DNA of 64,000 nucleotides from contig NC_016631.1 of the NCBI RefSeq assembly GCF_000178955.2, positions 1,674,001 to 1,738,000 on the forward strand. The letters run 5' to 3'. Within the stretch, counting starts at the first letter, position 1, and every line of letters starts with the position of its first letter. Below are positions 56,787 to 64,000 of the stretch, piece by piece. This DNA comes from Granulicella mallensis MP5ACTX8. GTDB lineage: Bacteria > Acidobacteriota > Terriglobia > Terriglobales > Acidobacteriaceae. The translations under genes were made by a program, and so were the position numbers. The notes below the pieces were generated by a model, which worked only from the letters and a program-made list of their open reading frames with translations, did not search any database and was not told the DNA's origin.

Positions 56787-58634
56787 GTGAGACTCATCGA
56801 TAATTTTGTAGGAAGATATGTTGCTTATCCTGCAGTTGCAGCTCTTTTAGCCGCATGTATCACCATGTCTGCTCCTGCTCAACAGAATCCTCCCCCTGGC
56901 GGTCATCTGGTCGATGACTGGACGCATCATCATGTCATCTTCTCCGACCCCGGTACGGAGCAGGACGCGATCAAGAAGGGCAGGCACGCGGAATGGCTGC
57001 GCATTGTGAACGATCCTCGCTATCGTATGCAGCAGATCCGGCGGGCAGCTGAAGCCAGGCAAGCATCACACTTTGGCTCAGACCCCTGGAATGATAGGGA
57101 ACACGACAGGCGGAGGGACGGGCATCCTCCCGCAGGGAGTGAGGATGAGTCTATCCAGAGAGACTGGGCCGTGACGGTGGGTGCAGCGGGGGCGTCTACT
57201 GCGATCGATACCTATCCTGCGAAGTTCACGTTTGACGTAAATGCCGTTCCTAGCTGCTCTCAGGATTACGTGATTTACCCTGTCAATGTTGCCGGCTCCA
57301 CGACTCAGGCAAATATTCTTGGCGTCAACAATCTCTACAAAACCACCTGCACCACGGGAACGGTGCCAAATGTAGAGTTTGCTTATAACGTTGGCACAGG
57401 CATCGTCGAAACTTCTCCGGTTCTTTCTGAGGATGGCACCAAGGTCGCTTTCGTGGAGAGCATTCAGGGTGGCCTCTTGAATCTTTCCGGGTCGATCTTT
57501 CACGTTCTTACGCTGGGCACCAATGGGAACACAGGTTGCCCTAGTTCTCCATGCAACGGAAATGCCAGCAACAAACCTGTGGCTCCAGGCACCCTGAACA
57601 ACGCAAAGGACGTCAAAATTCTGATGCAGGCCGCTACCCTTCTCGGCCTGAATGCTTTCGGTTCTACTGATTTCAAGTCATCGCCTTTTGTCGATTACAC
57701 GAACGACATTGCGTATATAGGGGACCTCAACGGAGTGCTGCACAAATTCACAGGGGTATTTCAAGGAATTCCAGCCGAAGTCATTACCGGGGGGTGGCCG
57801 TTTGTCGCCCCGGTGCCTCTTCTCGGTACAGCAGCCTCTTTTGGTAGCCCGGTTTTCGATGGAGGGGCTAGTCAGAACATCTACGTTGCCAGCCTTGCGA
57901 ACGGCTCTAACACCGGGGGGCAGATCTTCTGCGTTACCACGGCGGGTGCTGCCTGTGCTACTCCTAGTATCCAGGCTGGTACCGGCGGCATCCAGGATAG
58001 TCCGATTGTAGACAGCACGACAGAGAAGATCTTTGTAACGAATAACAACGGTTCATCGAATGCGCTGCTTCAGGTGTCTACGTCGTTAGCCTCAGCGTCG
58101 TTGATTACAGCCAACATGGGCGCAGCCGGGACCGACCTCTATGATGGGGCATTCGATAATGCCTATTTCGCAAACGGAACCAACACGGGACATATGTACT
58201 TCTGTGGAGGCGGCACGCTGTACCAGGTCCCGATCTCAAACGGCACCATGGGGACTGCGGCTGCTGCCACTACTCTCAAGCTAAGCACTGCCACAGGCGG
58301 GCAAGCTGATTGCACGCCGCTTACCGAGGTCTTTAACCCGAATATCACGATCAGTGGAACCACGGGCCATGACTTGCTCTTTCTGGGGGTGACGAACAAG
58401 GGCGCGCCCACAGGCTGCAATGGCGGAGCGTGCATCATGACCTTCGACATTACCAGTGGGGCCGTTCCCACTGCTCCCATAGCGACGTTCCCCTTAGCGA
58501 CGGGTACGACGCTGCTGGGGACGAGTGGATTAGTTATTGACAACGTCTCCACTAGCACTGGAGGATCGCAGGTGTACTTCGGAAACCTGAATGCAGGTAC
58601 TGGAGTGCAAGCTTCTCAAGCAGGGCTTCAATGA
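56787..58634 (+). CDS. Secreted beta-propeller-like protein heading the RiPP-type operon
   Basis: This 615-residue protein has a signal peptide (YPAVAALLAACITMSAPA), a charged His-rich linker (WTHHHVIF, REHDRRRDGHPP), and a Cys-rich beta-propeller-like body with repeating motifs such as VETSPVLSEDGTKVAFVES, FKSSPFVDYTNDIAYIGDLNG, SFGSPVFDGGASQNIYVASLANG and QDSPIVDSTTEKIFVTNNNG. The start is GTG with GGAGG 9 bases upstream. The stop overlaps the possible first ATG of the precursor gene (ATGA at 58631-58634). Homologs are not recognised; it might export, display or bind the peptide product, or be a surface protein sharing the transcript. Confidence 0.78.
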   Translation: MRLIDNFVGRYVAYPAVAALLAACITMSAPAQQNPPPGGHLVDDWTHHHVIFSDPGTEQDAIKKGRHAEWLRIVNDPRYRMQQIRRAAEARQASHFGSDPWNDREHDRRRDGHPPAGSEDESIQRDWAVTVGAAGASTAIDTYPAKFTFDVNAVPSCSQDYVIYPVNVAGSTTQANILGVNNLYKTTCTTGTVPNVEFAYNVGTGIVETSPVLSEDGTKVAFVESIQGGLLNLSGSIFHVLTLGTNGNTGCPSSPCNGNASNKPVAPGTLNNAKDVKILMQAATLLGLNAFGSTDFKSSPFVDYTNDIAYIGDLNGVLHKFTGVFQGIPAEVITGGWPFVAPVPLLGTAASFGSPVFDGGASQNIYVASLANGSNTGGQIFCVTTAGAACATPSIQAGTGGIQDSPIVDSTTEKIFVTNNNGSSNALLQVSTSLASASLITANMGAAGTDLYDGAFDNAYFANGTNTGHMYFCGGGTLYQVPISNGTMGTAAAATTLKLSTATGGQADCTPLTEVFNPNITISGTTGHDLLFLGVTNKGAPTGCNGGACIMTFDITSGAVPTAPIATFPLATGTTLLGTSGLVIDNVSTSTGGSQVYFGNLNAGTGVQASQAGLQ

Positions 58635-58642
58635 GGGGCAAC

Positions 58643-58822
58643 ATGAATGGACCGGAAGAGATCGACGAGATAACCGCGCAATCGGAGATACAGCCGCCGG
58701 CGAAGAAGCTCTATCGCAAACCTGAGTTTCGCTTCGAGCGCGTCTTCGAGACTCGGGCTCTGAGTTGCGGCAAGATATCGACGATCCAGGCCCAGTGCGC
58801 CCACAATCGAAAAAGCTCGTGA
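58643..58822 (+). CDS. Candidate RiPP precursor peptide
   Basis: This 59-residue peptide (63 from an ATG at 58631) has an acidic N-terminal leader (GPEEIDEITAQSE), then KKLYRKPEFRFERVFETRAL and a C-terminal SCGKISTIQAQCAHNRKSS. Tyr24-x-x-Pro27-x-Phe29 matches the YxxPxL leader motif that PqqD-type RRE domains recognise in lasso-peptide systems. Cys42 and Cys52 bound a 9-residue spacer in the putative core. GAGGGGCAAC precedes the ATG at 58643. Its TGA overlaps the peptidase GTG start (GTGA at 58819-58822), so it is translated together with modification genes. The precursor role is inferred. Confidence 0.72.
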   Translation: MNGPEEIDEITAQSEIQPPAKKLYRKPEFRFERVFETRALSCGKISTIQAQCAHNRKSS

Positions 58823-59304
58823 CGGGCGATGTCATGCCTGTGGGGTTGCAGCAGCGCTCGGCATTGGGTTGTGAGCTGGTTGCCGAGGTGGCTCACAGCT
58901 TCGGTGAGGTCTGCCTCCAGGTCACAGGCTCCAGCATGATTCCGGCGATCTGGCCGGGCGATGTGGTTGCCGTCCGGCGCTCTGATCTGGGAGAGTTGCG
59001 GCCTGGCCAGATTGTTTTATATCGACAGGAAAGAGGGCTGGTGGCTCACCGGATCGTCCATATTCAGGGCAATCTTTTGACTACTCGAGGAGATACGCTC
59101 CGGCATGACGACCCGCCGGTCAAGGCCTCTGATCTCGTGGGGCAGGTGCTTTCACTGGTTCGTAAGGGACAACGGGTGAATCTACGCCAATCCTCGTGGC
59201 AGTGCATCAGCGCGTCACTTCTGCGGCACTCGGACCTCTGCCTGCGCATGACGCTGCGTCTGGGGCTTCGCCTGCGGCGGCAGGGAACTGAGGAGATGGC
59301 ATGA
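58819..59304 (+). CDS. Soluble S26-type (SipW/SEC11-like) peptidase
   Basis: This protein of about 161 residues has the catalytic Ser in VTGSSMIPAIWPGDVVAVRR (Ser39) and the His-type general base in GLVAHRIVHIQ (His77), followed by the TRGDTLRHDDPPVKASDLVGQV signature of ER/SipW-type signal peptidases, which use Ser-His instead of Ser-Lys. No transmembrane helix is visible at either end, so it should be cytosolic. A GTG overlapping the precursor stop is the favoured start; a TTG at 58765 and an ATG at 58834 are alternatives. The context suggests a leader peptidase for the peptide. Confidence 0.8.
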   Translation: MTGDVMPVGLQQRSALGCELVAEVAHSFGEVCLQVTGSSMIPAIWPGDVVAVRRSDLGELRPGQIVLYRQERGLVAHRIVHIQGNLLTTRGDTLRHDDPPVKASDLVGQVLSLVRKGQRVNLRQSSWQCISASLLRHSDLCLRMTLRLGLRLRRQGTEEMA

Positions 59305-60116
59305 CGCATGAGCCCGTCACAGCTGCCGGGCAGGGAATCATCATTGAGATCGGCGGCATACCCATCCAGGTGCGTAGTGAAAGCCCGGAGTTTCTGCGCA
59401 TGTTGGAAGAGCGCTATTCCGGCTTTCTCAACGATGAGGCACACCCGGTCTTTGAATTCGATGTCGAGCTGGTGCAGCCGCGAAGGATCAGCGAAGAGGA
59501 CGATGTCGTGGTGAGCTTCGATTCGGGCCGATGGTTGATCGAGCGTGGCGACTTTCGTGCGGAGTGGGAGCCGGAGACGCGGCGCGGAAAGATTATCCAG
59601 TCGGCAAACCCTTACTCGATTGACTCTGTTCTTCGCATCGTTCACACGCTCGTTCTGGCGAGGGAGGGCGGTTTGCTGGTGCATGCAGCCAGCGCGGTTC
59701 GGAATGGCAAAGCCTTTCTGTTTGCAGGTGTCTCCGAGGCGGGAAAAACAACGATCTCGCGTCTGGCTCCTGGGGATGTTACGTTGCTCACCGACGAGAT
59801 TTCATATCTACGACGCGATGGAAATGGCTACGCCGCTTATGGCACGCCGTTTGCCGGAGAGCTGGCGAGGGCGGGAGAAAACGTTAAGGCTCCACTGGCG
59901 GCCTTGTATCTTTTGCGGAAGGGAACGGAGAATACGATCGAACCGGTGCGGCCGAACGATGCCGCGCGGATGCTGCTCGAAAACGTGCTGTTCTTTGCCT
60001 GCGATCCGGATCTGGTCGGTCTGGTCTTTGACGCAGCCTGCGAATTGGTGCAGCATGTCCCTGTGTACCGTTTGACTTTTTTCCCCGATGCACGAGTTTG
60101 GGAGCTGATTGGATGA
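59301..60116 (+). CDS. HprK-related kinase (RiPP/exosortase-context type)
   Basis: This 271-residue protein resembles the C-terminal kinase domain of HPr kinase. HAASAVRNGKAFLFAGVSEAGKTT (about 128-151) carries the P-loop GVSEAGKTT, where SG of HprK's GxSGxGKS is replaced by SE. LLTDEISYL (about 162-170) is the Walker-B-like loop. The N-terminal 100 residues lack the HprK receptor domain. The ATG overlaps the peptidase stop (ATGA). HprK-like enzymes in lasso systems phosphorylate the peptide, so the substrate here is probably the 59-residue precursor. Confidence 0.85.
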   Translation: MTHEPVTAAGQGIIIEIGGIPIQVRSESPEFLRMLEERYSGFLNDEAHPVFEFDVELVQPRRISEEDDVVVSFDSGRWLIERGDFRAEWEPETRRGKIIQSANPYSIDSVLRIVHTLVLAREGGLLVHAASAVRNGKAFLFAGVSEAGKTTISRLAPGDVTLLTDEISYLRRDGNGYAAYGTPFAGELARAGENVKAPLAALYLLRKGTENTIEPVRPNDAARMLLENVLFFACDPDLVGLVFDAACELVQHVPVYRLTFFPDARVWELIG

Positions 60117-60439
60117 GATCCGTTTATATTTCCAGGGCAACCGCCGTGGCCGCTCGTTCGCTCGATGGTGAAATGATGATCATGTCTGCCAGGGATTCCA
60201 CTTTGTTCACACTGAATCCGGTAGGCACCATCATCTGGCAGTCGGCAGACGGAAAGATGCCGCTGGCGGAGATCGTGAAACAGAAGATTTGCGTGGAATT
60301 TGACGCTGACCCAGCGGAGGCATTGAAAGATGCCGAGCAATTTGTGAGCGATTTGGCTAGTCATGGCATTCTGGTCCTGTCCGACAGTCCGATCGCTCAG
60401 CCCGAGCTACACAGCAAAACTGTAACAAGGGGGTCATGA
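60113..60439 (+). CDS. PqqD-family peptide chaperone (RRE)
   Basis: This 108-residue winged-helix protein has the PqqD pattern: ISRATAVAARSLDGEMMIMSARDSTLFTLNPVGTIIWQSADGKMPLAEIVKQ and DAEQFVSDLASHGIL. PqqD-type RiPP recognition elements hold the leader for the radical SAM enzyme. Its ATG overlaps the kinase stop and its stop overlaps the radical SAM start, so all four genes overlap by 4 bases. The C-terminal 20 residues (SPIAQPELHSKTVTRGS) are outside the fold. Confidence 0.9.
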   Translation: MRSVYISRATAVAARSLDGEMMIMSARDSTLFTLNPVGTIIWQSADGKMPLAEIVKQKICVEFDADPAEALKDAEQFVSDLASHGILVLSDSPIAQPELHSKTVTRGS

Positions 60440-61533
60440 TGAGCCTGATGCAGGAGCTTGGACAGCGTGCTTTGGACCGAGGCGTGCCGCTTAGCGTGCA
60501 ACTCGACGTTACCTACCGCTGCAACGAGCGCTGCGTCCATTGCTATCTTGACCACGACGACCACGGCGAGATGACCACTGCGGAGATGCGCGATGTGTTG
60601 GATCAACTGGCTGACGCGGGCGTTTTTTTCCTTACCTTGAGCGGCGGCGAAGTCTTCATGCGCCAGGATTTTTTCGACATTGTGGAATACGCGCGCTCTT
60701 TGATGTTCTGCGTAAAGATCAAGACCAACGCATTCATGATCGGAGAAGAAGAGGCGCGCCGCCTGCACGAGCTGATGGTGCAGGATGTTCAGGTCAGCAT
60801 CTACTCCCATCGCGCAGAGGTTCATGATGCCATTACGCTGCTTCCGGGCTCGTTGAAGCGGACCGTTGAGGGAATACGGCGGCTGCGGGCACAGGGGGTT
60901 AAAGTCATCGTCGCAAACGTCCTGATGATGCAGAACCTGGGCGACTATGGCGGAGTGATTCAACTTGCAGAGGATCTTGGCGCCGAATACACCATTGACC
61001 CGACGATCACCCCGATGATGGATGGGGATAGGAATGTACTCCGGCTGGGCCTGGGCGTGCCGCAACTGCAGGACGTGTTTCGCAACTCCGATCTGGTGGG
61101 GGACGTCGATGAGTTTTGCGCCCCGCCGCCTGCAATGCATGAGGATGTCCTAAGAGAGTTACCGTGCAGCGCCGGTCACACGGCATGCTATATCTCGCCT
61201 TACGGAGACCTGTACCCCTGCGTGCAGTTCCCTTTGCCCAGCGGTAATGTGCGCAGCCAGAAGTTCATGGACATCTGGCTCCACTCCGAACAACTTAACG
61301 ATGTTCGTTCCATCTCCGCGGCCGATCTGCCGGTGTGCTCGGGCTGTGGTCATGTCGGCTCCTGTTCACGCTGCCCCGGACTGGCTTATTTGGAAGGAAA
61401 TATGCGTGGACCCTCCACGCAGGACTGCCAAAAATCCTTCGCGCGGACTGGGATCGAATCTGCGAACATGCGGCTCAAAAAGGCTGGATCAGGATCTTCA
61501 AGTCTGGTTCAGATTGCCGCGTTGCCAGCCTGA
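60436..61533 (+). CDS. Radical SAM/SPASM peptide-modifying enzyme
   Basis: This 365-residue radical SAM enzyme has CNERCVHC (Cys29, 33, 36) for the SAM cluster and GGE (70-72). Its C-terminal SPASM region has Cys228, 244, 251, 262, 301, 304, 310, 313 and 331 (CSAGHTACYISPYGDLYPC, CSGCGHVGSCSRC), enough for two auxiliary Fe-S clusters. It resembles PqqE/sactisynthase-type enzymes, which form C-C, C-S or other crosslinks on peptides. With the PqqD partner and precursor directly upstream, it likely modifies the Cys-bounded core; the bond type cannot be read. Confidence 0.92.
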   Translation: MMSLMQELGQRALDRGVPLSVQLDVTYRCNERCVHCYLDHDDHGEMTTAEMRDVLDQLADAGVFFLTLSGGEVFMRQDFFDIVEYARSLMFCVKIKTNAFMIGEEEARRLHELMVQDVQVSIYSHRAEVHDAITLLPGSLKRTVEGIRRLRAQGVKVIVANVLMMQNLGDYGGVIQLAEDLGAEYTIDPTITPMMDGDRNVLRLGLGVPQLQDVFRNSDLVGDVDEFCAPPPAMHEDVLRELPCSAGHTACYISPYGDLYPCVQFPLPSGNVRSQKFMDIWLHSEQLNDVRSISAADLPVCSGCGHVGSCSRCPGLAYLEGNMRGPSTQDCQKSFARTGIESANMRLKKAGSGSSSLVQIAALPA

Positions 61534-61566: not shown

Positions 61567-62256
61567 ATGCCTGAAAACAGTAATGAAGCTACATGGGACC
61601 CGGTGTGGGAAGAGATCTTCCAGCGTAAGGAATGGGGTAAGTATCCGCCTGAGCACGTGGTTCGTTTTGTAGCGCGTAATTTTTACCGGGCTACAGAGCG
61701 CAGCGGCGTTCGGATTCTGGAGATCGGTTGCGGACCGGGTGCAAATGTCTGGTTTATGGCGCGCGAAGGTTTTGCGGTCTCTGGTATCGATGGTTCTTCG
61801 ACCGCTATCCAGAAGGCAGGCCAACGATTGAGCAACGAAGGCCTGGCGGCTGATTTGCGCGTCGGCGATTTTGCTCAGTTGCCGTGGCCGGATGCAAGTT
61901 TCGATGGCGTCGTAGAGAATGTCAGTCTTTATACAAATCCCTTGAACAGCATCCAACGCGCGTTGCGCGAGGTGCATCGTGTGTTGAAACCTGGGGCACC
62001 GTTTCTTTCTTCGTCTTTTAGCGATCGAACGTGGGGCTATGGTCTGGGTGAATGGGTGGAGCCTGATAGCTTTACAAATATCCAGGAGGGCCCGATTGCC
62101 GGTACCGGGTTCTGTTTTTTTCTGAAGCGAGAGAAAGTTCCCGGCCTCTTTCAGGATTTCTCCGATGTGACTATCGAACGAATCTCCCAGACGCTGGACG
62201 GGGAGCAACATCTGGTAGAACAGATTGTGGTCACCTGCCGTAAGCCTGGGAAATGA
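61567..62256 (+). CDS. Class I SAM-dependent methyltransferase
   Basis: This 229-residue Rossmann methyltransferase has ILEIGCGPGANVWFMAREG (motif I, about 49-67), VSGIDGSSTAIQKAGQ, DLRVGDFAQLPWPDASFDGVVEN and LREVHRVLKPGAPFLSSSF. Its acceptor is unknown; it may methylate the peptide, a lipid-linked sugar or a small metabolite. It lies 33 bases after the radical SAM gene and 3 bases before the FemAB-like gene, so it is in the same operon. Confidence 0.85.
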   Translation: MPENSNEATWDPVWEEIFQRKEWGKYPPEHVVRFVARNFYRATERSGVRILEIGCGPGANVWFMAREGFAVSGIDGSSTAIQKAGQRLSNEGLAADLRVGDFAQLPWPDASFDGVVENVSLYTNPLNSIQRALREVHRVLKPGAPFLSSSFSDRTWGYGLGEWVEPDSFTNIQEGPIAGTGFCFFLKREKVPGLFQDFSDVTIERISQTLDGEQHLVEQIVVTCRKPGK

Positions 62257-62259
62257 ATC

Positions 62260-63360
62260 ATGCAAAAATCCGCACTTGAGCTTCTGACTGTAGCGGATTC
62301 AGAGCGATGGAGCACCTTGGTTGTTCATTCCGCCACGCCTGATGTCTACTACTTGCCTGCATACGTCCACGCAACGGCAGAGATCGAACACACGGAGCCT
62401 GTGGCTGTCGTCGCAGGACAGGATTCCTGCCGGCTCCTCGCGCCCTTACTGGTTCGCAAGATGACAGCCGGGGTGAACGGTTCAGAGAATGCGCCGGGAG
62501 ACGTCTCCGGCATCCAGTGGAGCGATGCTTGTTCTCCCTATGGCTATGGAGGTCTCCTGCCTCTATCGAACAGCCAGACAGTGGATGCCGACAGCCTGCG
62601 CTATTTTTTTGACGACCTTCGCGGTTGGTGTTCTTCTCGTGATCTGGTTTGCTGCGTGCTTCGTTTGCATCCGCTCATGAATCAGGCCGAGTGGTTTCTG
62701 CAGGAGGAGCCATGGCAGAAGGACCTGAAGATAGATCTTCGGGGCTCGACCGTCGCAATCGACCTGGGTCGCTGGGATGACGCCCGGGATTGTCCGGACG
62801 GGATGAGAAAAGGCAGGCGTTCCGATCTGAACGTTGCCCGGCGCGACTTGCGCGTGACATGGACCAGCGGGGAAGACCTTGACGTCGGCCTGAACCTCGA
62901 TCGTTTTCTTGCTCTGTATGAACAGGCCATGGAAAATCATGGCGCCGCCGGTTTCTACAAATTTCCTCCCGAGTATTTTTCACGTTTGGCTTCACTAGAA
63001 CAACGTTTCAGCATTGCTTTTGCATGGCTGGGCGATCAACTCGCCGGAGCAAGCATCTTTCTGGCAGGGCGCGATTATGCTCATTATCATCTTGCCGCCG
63101 GCAATGAACTGGGGATGAAACATAAGGCTGCCACGCTGCTGCTGGTCGAGGGTGCGAAGTGGGCGCGACGGCAAGGCTGCAAGCTGCTGCATCTCGGCGG
63201 CGGAGTGAGTCCCGGCGATTCGCTCGAAGATTTCAAGCGCAGCTTCGGGACAGAGTTATATCGTTATGCTTATCTTGTAATGGTCACCGATCCGGAACGC
63301 TTCGAGCAGCTCTGTCAGTTACCGAATGCACCGTGGCCCTACAACGTGAGCCGCACATGA
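62260..63360 (+). CDS. FemAB/GNAT-like acyltransferase
   Basis: This 366-residue protein resembles the FemAB-type GNAT fold. It has the N-terminal half with SDACSPYGYGGLLPLS, the second GNAT repeat with RKGRRSDLNVARRDLRVTWTSGED, FYKFPPEYFSRLASLEQRFSIAFAWLGDQLAGASIF and the hallmark LGGGVSPGDSLEDFKRSFG near the C-terminus. Such proteins transfer aminoacyl or acyl groups to amino sugars or lipids. The neighbouring NeuC-type gene, whose ATG overlaps its stop, suggests an amino-sugar substrate. Confidence 0.85.
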   Translation: MQKSALELLTVADSERWSTLVVHSATPDVYYLPAYVHATAEIEHTEPVAVVAGQDSCRLLAPLLVRKMTAGVNGSENAPGDVSGIQWSDACSPYGYGGLLPLSNSQTVDADSLRYFFDDLRGWCSSRDLVCCVLRLHPLMNQAEWFLQEEPWQKDLKIDLRGSTVAIDLGRWDDARDCPDGMRKGRRSDLNVARRDLRVTWTSGEDLDVGLNLDRFLALYEQAMENHGAAGFYKFPPEYFSRLASLEQRFSIAFAWLGDQLAGASIFLAGRDYAHYHLAAGNELGMKHKAATLLLVEGAKWARRQGCKLLHLGGGVSPGDSLEDFKRSFGTELYRYAYLVMVTDPERFEQLCQLPNAPWPYNVSRT

Positions 63361-64000
63361 GTTTGGAAAGAAAGGGACGGACGCCATTGAGATCGATTGG
63401 AGTCGTGACGACGTCGCGCGCGGACTATAGCTGCTATCGCCCGCTCCTGAATGCCTTCCAGGCCGATCCGGAGATATCGCCTAAGTTATATGTCTCCGGC
63501 ACGCATCTCTCTGCGGAGTTTGGGATGACTGTGCGGTCCGTTGAAGACGACGGAATCGAGATTGTCGAACGGGTGGAGATGCTGCTCTCCTCCGACACGC
63601 CGGAAGCTATTGCCAAGTCGATGGGGCTGGGCCTGATCGGGTTTGGCCAGGCCTTCAGCAGGTACCGCCCGGAGATCCTCATCGTGCTGGGTGACCGGTA
63701 TGAGATGCTCGCCGCAACACTCGCCGCGCTACCCTTCAAGATTCCCATCGCACATCTCAGCGGGGGCGAACTGACGCAAGGCGCGATCGATGACGCTCTA
63801 CGGCACAGTATTACCAAGCTGAGCCATCTGCACTTTACGGCTACGGAAGCCTATGCTCGCCGCGTCATTCAATTAGGCGAAGACCCAAAGCGTGTTTTTG
63901 TATCCGGTGAACCGACGCTCGATCATATTTCGACCGCACCGAGGCTCACTCCCGAGGAGCTGAGAAAACGCTTTGGCATCGACGTCGAGCGTCCCTTCCT
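63357..64000 (+). CDS. neuC: UDP-GlcNAc 2-epimerase (hydrolysing), NeuC-type, N-terminal part
   Basis: This is the first ~214 residues of a NeuC/LegG-type enzyme that converts UDP-GlcNAc (or a UDP-bacillosamine derivative) to the free 2-epimer for nonulosonic acid synthesis. Visible are the N-terminal GVVTTSRADYSCYRPLLNAF, LIVLGDRYEMLAATLAALPFKIPIAHLSGGELTQGAIDDALRHSITKLSHLHF and a C-terminal start LDHI. The frame runs off the window. It follows the FemAB-like gene (ATGA overlap). NeuB-type and other nonulosonate genes are expected next. Confidence 0.9.
   Translation, partial: MSLERKGRTPLRSIGVVTTSRADYSCYRPLLNAFQADPEISPKLYVSGTHLSAEFGMTVRSVEDDGIEIVERVEMLLSSDTPEAIAKSMGLGLIGFGQAFSRYRPEILIVLGDRYEMLAATLAALPFKIPIAHLSGGELTQGAIDDALRHSITKLSHLHFTATEAYARRVIQLGEDPKRVFVSGEPTLDHISTAPRLTPEELRKRFGIDVERPF

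Follow-up and report, generated by a model that had tools for sequence, protein, structure and literature searches.

What does a run of five overlapping genes make, and has anything like it been described before? The question is raised by a stretch of 64,000 nucleotides from Granulicella mallensis MP5ACTX8 (NC_016631.1, positions 1,674,001 to 1,738,000 of the forward strand; hereafter the window, to which all positions refer), for which an earlier note had proposed a candidate new system producing a ribosomally synthesised and post-translationally modified peptide (RiPP). Re-reading of the sequence bears out the five open reading frames (ORFs) of that proposal and the four 4-base overlaps that join them between 58643 and 61533, all on the forward strand: a precursor peptide gene, a signal-peptidase-like gene, a gene for a kinase of the HprK/PEPCK fold, one for a stand-alone PqqD-type RiPP recognition element (RRE) and one for a radical S-adenosylmethionine (radical SAM) enzyme with a SPASM domain. 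A precursor with a conserved leader thus stands beside an RRE and modifying enzymes, as in RiPP clusters in general, and the five genes are a real, recurring RiPP-type system. The claim of novelty holds only in part. The combination does differ from that of the paeninodin-type lasso peptides, but the linear polyphosphorylated peptides (LPP) of Bacillota, made by LppA, S, K, B, N and D (Popov et al., May 2026, PMC13381572), are closer, and the SynChlorMet models of NCBIfam are related. LPP is the closest described system found, and the cassette is a radical SAM variant of the LPP/paeninodin phosphopeptide kind, not a categorically new system. What is new is the addition of a SPASM radical SAM enzyme to an LPP-type set, a compact core with two Cys, and a conserved C-terminal Ser on which the earlier note had not remarked.

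Recurrence was assessed by scanning genome contigs with a radical SAM alignment and retaining the best 80 of 538 matches as loci, in which precursors were detected by a profile of the leader only. The order precursor, peptidase, kinase, PqqD protein, radical SAM enzyme is found at 65 of these 80 acidobacterial loci, and the five genes do recur together as had been anticipated. Taken singly, the PqqD protein and the radical SAM enzyme are present at all 80, the kinase at 76, the peptidase at 73 and the precursor at 68, with one more precursor (L082, giving 69/80) once long frames are admitted; three of the loci without one (L057, L067 and L101) have a contig end inside the cassette. The closest named relative is the locus of Granulicella mallensis X5P3, whose radical SAM enzyme is 96% identical. 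Because these loci were recruited by the radical SAM enzyme, a search that started from the kinase gives an independent view of how the two are paired. At E 1e-15 the kinase is matched in 107 of the 396 genomes searched within the phylum (148 rows, with one kinase, that of G321, entered twice), and a related radical SAM enzyme (E 1e-45) lies no more than 10 kb away for 97 of the 148 rows, the 10 strongest included; with about six candidates scored per genome, these counts are lower bounds. The radical SAM enzyme is a frequent, non-universal partner of the kinase. Among 61 related genomes searched with the kinase, 8 gave matches, with other cassette genes beside several of them, and a plasmid search returned radical SAM enzymes only, all below 60% identity.

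Leader, core and the terminal serine

The precursor gene (58643..58822, + strand) encodes 59 residues plus a stop. Its predicted RRE-binding motif, Y24-x-x-P27-x-F29 (58712..58729, +), was recognised by conservation and by the motif class described in PMC13381572. The earlier note had expected homologues to keep Tyr-x-x-Pro-x-Phe; Tyr-x-x-Pro is kept in 67/67 evaluable precursors (that of L084 is cut), and the sixth position is Phe in 59 and Val, Tyr or Leu in 8. Eleven residues after the Tyr, in 67/67, stands a Phe that is invariant (68/68) and is followed by Glu or Val (48/20) and then Thr or Val (60/8). In the window this is F35-E36-T37 (58745..58753, +), the predicted end of the leader, and its letters match the LPP cleavage site, where the cut falls after Thr (PMC13381572). 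A site obeying the Ala-x-Ala rule, [TV]-x-A|[LV]-x-C, also fits 68/68 precursors, but the cut after F-[EV]-[TV] is ranked above it, given that the Phe is invariant and that LppS acts at this position.

The predicted core, RALSCGKISTIQAQCAHNRKSS (22 residues; 58754..58819, +), carries Cys42, Cys52 and a C-terminal Ser59. Cores counted from F-[EV]-[TV] are 21-24 residues long in 67/67 precursors (L108, whose ORF runs on, is left out) and begin x-A-[LV]-x-C, with Leu or Val as third residue in 68/68 and Ser as fourth in 35/68. Two Cys are present in 68/68 cores, most often spaced by nine residues (56/67), and C-G-K is found in 63/67; the net charge is +1 to +6 in 66/67.

The last residue, Ser59 (58817..58819, +), is the predicted target of the kinase. 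Ser ends 67 of 68 precursors, or 68 of 69 with L082, the sole exception being L108, and since the leader profile excluded the C-terminus this residue was not selected for by the search. The same residue recurs at a greater distance. In other families of the phylum, 40 loci were chosen for having kinase and radical SAM enzyme together; of the [YW]xxPx ORFs near these genes and on the cassette strand, 29 of 49, obvious non-genes included, have Ser as their last residue, against 4 of 67 for opposite-strand controls (Fisher p 2.3e-10, a value that is too small because the rows are related). The Ser-ending distant precursors span unlike families, as in KPYEKPAVVYREKIEAKAG..C...YVS and RPEEAVLGxCK...IGS. 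In the lasso peptides, according to the available part of PMC9266682, the C-terminal Ser is 'the extremely conserved site' of kinase-bearing clusters and is phosphorylated by both PadeK and PsmK, while PsmN is linked to a hexose on the phospho-Ser.

Enzymes and a proposed pathway

The peptidase, the PqqD protein and the SPASM radical SAM enzyme pass Pfam cut-offs, whereas the kinase is weakly recognised by sequence; matches to sequences in the Protein Data Bank (PDB) are weak for kinase and peptidase. The predicted leader peptidase (58819..59304, +) is of the S24/S26 signal-peptidase-like kind, with Ser39 (73/74) and His77 (73/73) and with Asp92 (73/73) and Asp98 (72/72) likewise kept. It scores 50.3 bits against the archaeal-type signal peptidase model TIGR02228, just below the cut-off of 51.85, and none of the 72 full peptidase ORFs has a membrane-type segment in a 19-residue hydropathy test. 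The kinase (59301..60116, +) has His128 (75/75 where present), the P-loop Lys149 (74/74) and Asp165-Glu166 (Asp165 75/75; Glu166 invariant). Glu166 sits where the His-Lys-Asp-Asp motif of the paeninodin type might expect its second Asp, in a mapping made without an aligned reference kinase. A confident structure model of the kinase matches PEPCK and HprK/P, and would place it nearest PEPCK.

The PqqD-type protein (60113..60439, +; PF05402) matches TbiB1, a lasso RRE, in the PDB (E 5.9e-6). Its Asn35 and Asp73, each kept in 73/81, may correspond, as judged by inspection only, to N33 and D70 of LppB, the residues that hold the leader motif (PMC13381572). The radical SAM enzyme (60436..61533, +), assigned by Pfam, has 11 Cys that are invariant in 81/81 sequences: C29, C33 and C36 of the CxxxCxxC motif, C228, C244, C262, C301, C304, C310, C313 and C331. 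Its best solved relatives by sequence are SkfB (E 2.3e-21), which forms thioethers, and PqqE. A part in anti-phage defence was considered and rejected, as PADLOC shows only a generic radical SAM likeness to viperins (53.2 bits).

Taken together, these features make it fairly probable that the cassette encodes a RiPP pathway in which a PqqD-guided radical SAM enzyme acts on a Cys-containing core, a kinase on the C-terminal Ser and an S26-type peptidase on the leader. The PqqD protein would bind the precursor through YxxPxF, as motif and family suggest, and would present the core of 22 residues to the SPASM enzyme. The latter most likely builds a thioether or a related carbon cross-link from one or both of the invariant Cys, although the chemistry is uncertain. 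The kinase would phosphorylate the hydroxyl of the C-terminal Ser, perhaps repeatedly, a step that we infer from the Ser of 68/69 precursors together with the proven activity of the paeninodin kinases. An NTP_transf_5 protein, encoded at roughly half of the loci, may modify the phosphate further. The soluble Ser-His signal-peptidase homologue, with the PqqD protein, would cut the leader, most likely after F-[EV]-[TV] in the manner of LppS, to release a product of 21-24 residues that is nearly always net positive. Export would be by an ABC-2 transporter at some loci, and by another route at those that instead encode a secreted p615-like protein (described below), as in the window. A role at the cell surface is suggested by the location within an exopolysaccharide locus.

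A number of observations weigh against this pathway. Every catalytic step is inferred, and product, phosphate and radical chemistry are predicted only, from an architecture, a recurrence and a conservation that are themselves observed in rows that are mutually related and do not represent independent events. Eight loci with enough sequence lack a precursor (L049, L053, L062, L068, L076, L083, L104 and L114), and 51 of the 148 kinase rows have no related radical SAM enzyme inside 10 kb. LppK puts several phosphates on Ser3 of the core and not on its C-terminus (PMC13381572), and the distant WxxP precursors of L160-L163 end in Asp, Leu, Gly and Arg despite a kinase in the locus. Conversely, L048, L071 and L090 keep the terminal Ser with no kinase gene in the sequence examined; kinase-bearing cassettes (L079 and L081) lie in the same genomes as L071 and L090. 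The residue preceding the first Cys is sometimes not small (Arg 2, Phe 1, Gln 1; n=68). Finally, of the 68 NCBIfam matches of the radical SAM enzyme, the 25 listed all fall short of their cut-offs, and the chemistry of the enzyme therefore cannot be read off its family.

This last point bears on a rather unlikely alternative, in which the product is a linear phosphopeptide of the LPP type, the radical SAM enzyme performs an epimerisation, a decarboxylation or a C-C cross-link, and the Cys form an extracellular disulfide. The two Cys of 68/68 cores and the best PDB sequence match, the thioether-forming SkfB, argue against it, and the scarcity of Tyr, which makes up 0.1% of the cores, speaks against a Tyr cross-link of the PqqE type. 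It is favoured by the top family scores of the enzyme, which fall to heme b synthase (138.5 bits) and the mycofactocin maturase (136.2 bits), both under cut-off, and to no sactipeptide enzyme, and by the available part of PMC13381572, which describes no Cys chemistry for LPP.

The cassettes that retain Ser where no kinase gene was seen count in favour of a different and improbable explanation, namely that the kinase acts on a target such as a sugar, a lipid or a regulatory protein of the exopolysaccharide locus while the peptidase, the radical SAM enzyme or stability accounts for the conserved Ser. The polysaccharide genes that surround the locus, and a kinase fold nearest that of PEPCK, a small-molecule enzyme, would suit such a target. 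Against it stand the recurrence of the C-terminal Ser in unlike precursor families of distant kinase and radical SAM loci, and the proof that HprK-type kinases of lasso clusters phosphorylate this residue (PMC9266682, available part).

If radical modification of the core and phosphorylation of its terminal Ser do occur together, the cassette brings together radical SAM maturation and Ser phosphorylation by HprK-type kinases, two branches of RiPP chemistry, and yields a precise prediction, a phosphate on the last Ser. A wider claim is possible but more doubtful: that these loci form a phylum-wide class in which a short two-Cys core is cross-linked by the SPASM radical SAM enzyme, an obligatory C-terminal Ser bears a polyphosphate or phosphosugar built by the HprK/PEPCK-fold kinase, often with an NTP transferase, a soluble homologue of signal peptidases of the endoplasmic reticulum/archaeal type cuts the leader, and the product acts at the exopolysaccharide surface with a new secreted propeller protein. 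If true, radical cyclisation and C-terminal Ser phosphorylation would meet in one peptide for the first time.

Relation to described peptide systems

The LPP set consists of the RRE LppB, the HprK kinase LppK, the SpI-like (type I signal peptidase) enzyme LppS, which cuts after FET with the help of the RRE, an NTP (nucleoside triphosphate) transferase and a pump; it lies in capsule loci and has no lasso cyclase (PMC13381572). The acidobacterial cassette shares the Ser-His-Asp leader peptidase beside the RRE (73/80 loci, with Ser39, His77 and Asp98 paired with LppS residues by inspection), the stand-alone RRE and HprK-like kinase (80 and 76 of 80), the NTP transferase (41/80), the YxxPx and FET leader, the lack of a lasso cyclase and the polysaccharide-locus setting. 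It differs in the SPASM radical SAM enzyme that adjoins the RRE at 80/80 of the loci recruited by that enzyme and at 97/148 in the kinase-first search, and the main text of PMC13381572 contains none of the terms 'radical SAM', 'rSAM', 'SPASM' or 'Acidobacteri'. The precursors differ as well: LPP cores are variable, with Ser3 as phosphosite, whereas those described here are compact, with two Cys and a C-terminal Ser, and the printed LPP consensus, YxxPxVLxHQxIxFETxxS, spaces Tyr and Phe by 13 residues instead of 11 and has a Ser where the cores here have Leu or Val in 68/68. An MsbA-like pump belongs to the LPP cluster and an ABC-2 exporter is found at 20/80 loci here; no MsbA-like pump was seen among the neighbour families common to at least 8 of the 80 loci, neither less common neighbours nor other parts of the window having been searched for one. 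LPP is said to be restricted to Bacillota, and the roles of LPP and paeninodin peptides, both often encoded within capsule loci, are given as unknown (PMC13381572). The phosphopeptide idea would be extended to Acidobacteriota, a major soil phylum with a related kinase in 107/396 sampled genomes, and the function of such peptides becomes easier to approach with another lineage that lies in exopolysaccharide loci.

Paeninodin-type lasso peptides (PadeK, ThcoK, PsmK/PsmN) resemble the cassette in their HprK-type kinase, PqqD-type RRE, NTP transferase partner and, in kinase-bearing clusters, C-terminal Ser (here 68/69 precursors). Here, a radical SAM enzyme and an S26 peptidase are present instead, and the leader has YxxP in place of the WxxP of paeninodin (PMC13381572). 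The earlier note had reported that both the transglutaminase-type peptidase and the asparagine-synthetase-like cyclase of those systems are missing, and both statements stand. A search of the genome at E 0.001 gave no match for the B2 peptidase (Transglut_core3, PF13471), and none of the three Asn_synthase (PF00733) matches in the genome lies in the cassette: the one strong match, about 12 kb downstream among the glycosyltransferases of the polysaccharide locus, is AsnB-type and carries a GATase domain, and the weak ones (E 1.3e-7 and 6.8e-6) are far away. Because of these two negative results, assignment to the paeninodin type was rejected.

The SynChlorMet (SCM) models of NCBIfam are related at a greater distance. 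In NCBIfam the kinase is best matched by ScmC and the PqqD protein by the PqqD-related ScmD, and ScmE and ScmF are SPASM radical SAM enzymes, but the scores are far under the cut-offs (42.5 of 125; 36.5 of 100; 96.3 of 400), the SCM names include two radical SAM enzymes and the cassette one, and the best matches of the peptidase lie elsewhere. The match of the kinase suggests that ScmC is itself HprK-like. The term SynChlorMet was not found in the literature searched. Pyrroloquinoline quinone (PQQ; PqqA/D/E) and mycofactocin (MftA/B/C) are likewise made from a short peptide by a PqqD-type RRE and a SPASM radical SAM enzyme; the kinase and the S26 peptidase are additional here, and the radical SAM enzyme scores below the PqqE and MftC cut-offs. 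A PQQ cluster was rejected as an identity, the second PqqD of the genome sitting in a separate PQQ-like cluster (gene names assigned by eye). Two invariant Cys and the SkfB match recall sactipeptides and ranthipeptides, with no cut-off passed among the matches listed. No description of the five-gene combination was found in the literature searched, which covered few subscription papers and preprints and does not prove absence; the available parts of PMC7470986, PMC12710340, PMC4289311 and PMC8692599 hold nothing of this kind.

Neighbouring genes and outlying precursors

The cassette adjoins an exopolysaccharide locus. Directly 3' of it (61567-63998) are genes for a methyltransferase, a FemAB/GNAT-like protein and a NeuC-type UDP-GlcNAc 2-epimerase (over its NCBIfam cut-off, 255.2 vs 235.9), which together mark the beginning of the polysaccharide locus; also downstream are Wzz, an O-antigen ligase, glycosyltransferases, a sugar transferase and an aminotransferase. 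On the other side, a putative accessory NTP_transf_5 protein (PF14907; 55268..56482, - strand) has homologues at 41/80 loci. Between it and the precursor lies p615 (56787..58634, +), a putative accessory protein of 615 residues whose stop is separated from the precursor start by 8 bases, with GAGGGG upstream of the precursor. There is one copy of p615 in the genome, and p615-like proteins are found at 45/80 loci, immediately 5' of the precursor at 34. It has an N-terminal motif like DWSHxHLIFS and no match in Pfam at E 0.1 or in NCBIfam at E 10. The structure model is moderate (mean predicted local distance difference test score 69.7) and matches generic propellers (YncE, BamB, WD40). With no family over cut-off, p615 could not be named as an enzyme, and it is a secreted, probably beta-propeller protein without a family name.

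The ABC-2 exporter is encoded at 20/80 loci, 18 times on the cassette strand and at L109 and L110 on the opposite strand, and it nearly excludes p615: the two occur together only at L110, and 19 exporter loci are without p615. Among 48 loci with a precursor and more than 3.2 kb of upstream sequence, p615 is found at 32, the exporter at 15, both at 1 and neither at 2 (L087 and L122), L087 having only an ABC ATPase about 10 kb off. A free functional exchange of the two was rejected, as only 3 changes are needed on the radical SAM tree (ABC-2 genes counted), and the split is thus largely inherited.

The proximity of p615 and its presence at over half of the loci, together with a PqqD protein, a SPASM radical SAM enzyme and a short peptide in the PQQ/mycofactocin layout, would fit a cofactor-like or sensing peptide, perhaps a small redox cofactor for the secreted p615. 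We regard this as very improbable. The fold matches of p615 are generic and its family searches blank, the exporter mostly occurs where p615 does not, and a kinase with a conserved C-terminal Ser is unexpected for a cofactor.

Beside the pathway of a cross-linked, phosphorylated peptide proposed above stand several outlying forms of its genes. The kinase-less cassettes of L071 and L090 have a second PqqD-like ORF 5' of the precursor. The distant precursors of L160-L163 form a subfamily, WxxPxIEWEExYEPVV..C...C or close to it, accompanied by kinase and radical SAM enzyme, and L159, of the same type, ends in Ser. A precursor copy at L138 (G321:C3) has no cassette gene in the stretch examined, and a second copy at L136 (G132:C29) is without the expected stop; since G321 and G132 each carry one cassette-type radical SAM enzyme elsewhere, these precursors may act in trans or be decaying. 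At L126, L128, L130, L131 and L133, precursor-like ORFs of about 37-41 residues, for example MKKPYEKPAIVHTEKIEARAVSC...S, lie beside seemingly secreted proteins. They were rejected as orphan precursors, a related radical SAM enzyme being present elsewhere in each genome and, in three of the five (G226, G210 and G150), on the same contig at 12-16 kb. At L020 (10100-16480) and L021 (10123-16548), a match to an S26-like profile lies within a single reading frame of more than 2,000 codons; that of L020 scores below the S24 cut-off in Pfam and has DUF11 repeats with a peptidase C25 domain further on.

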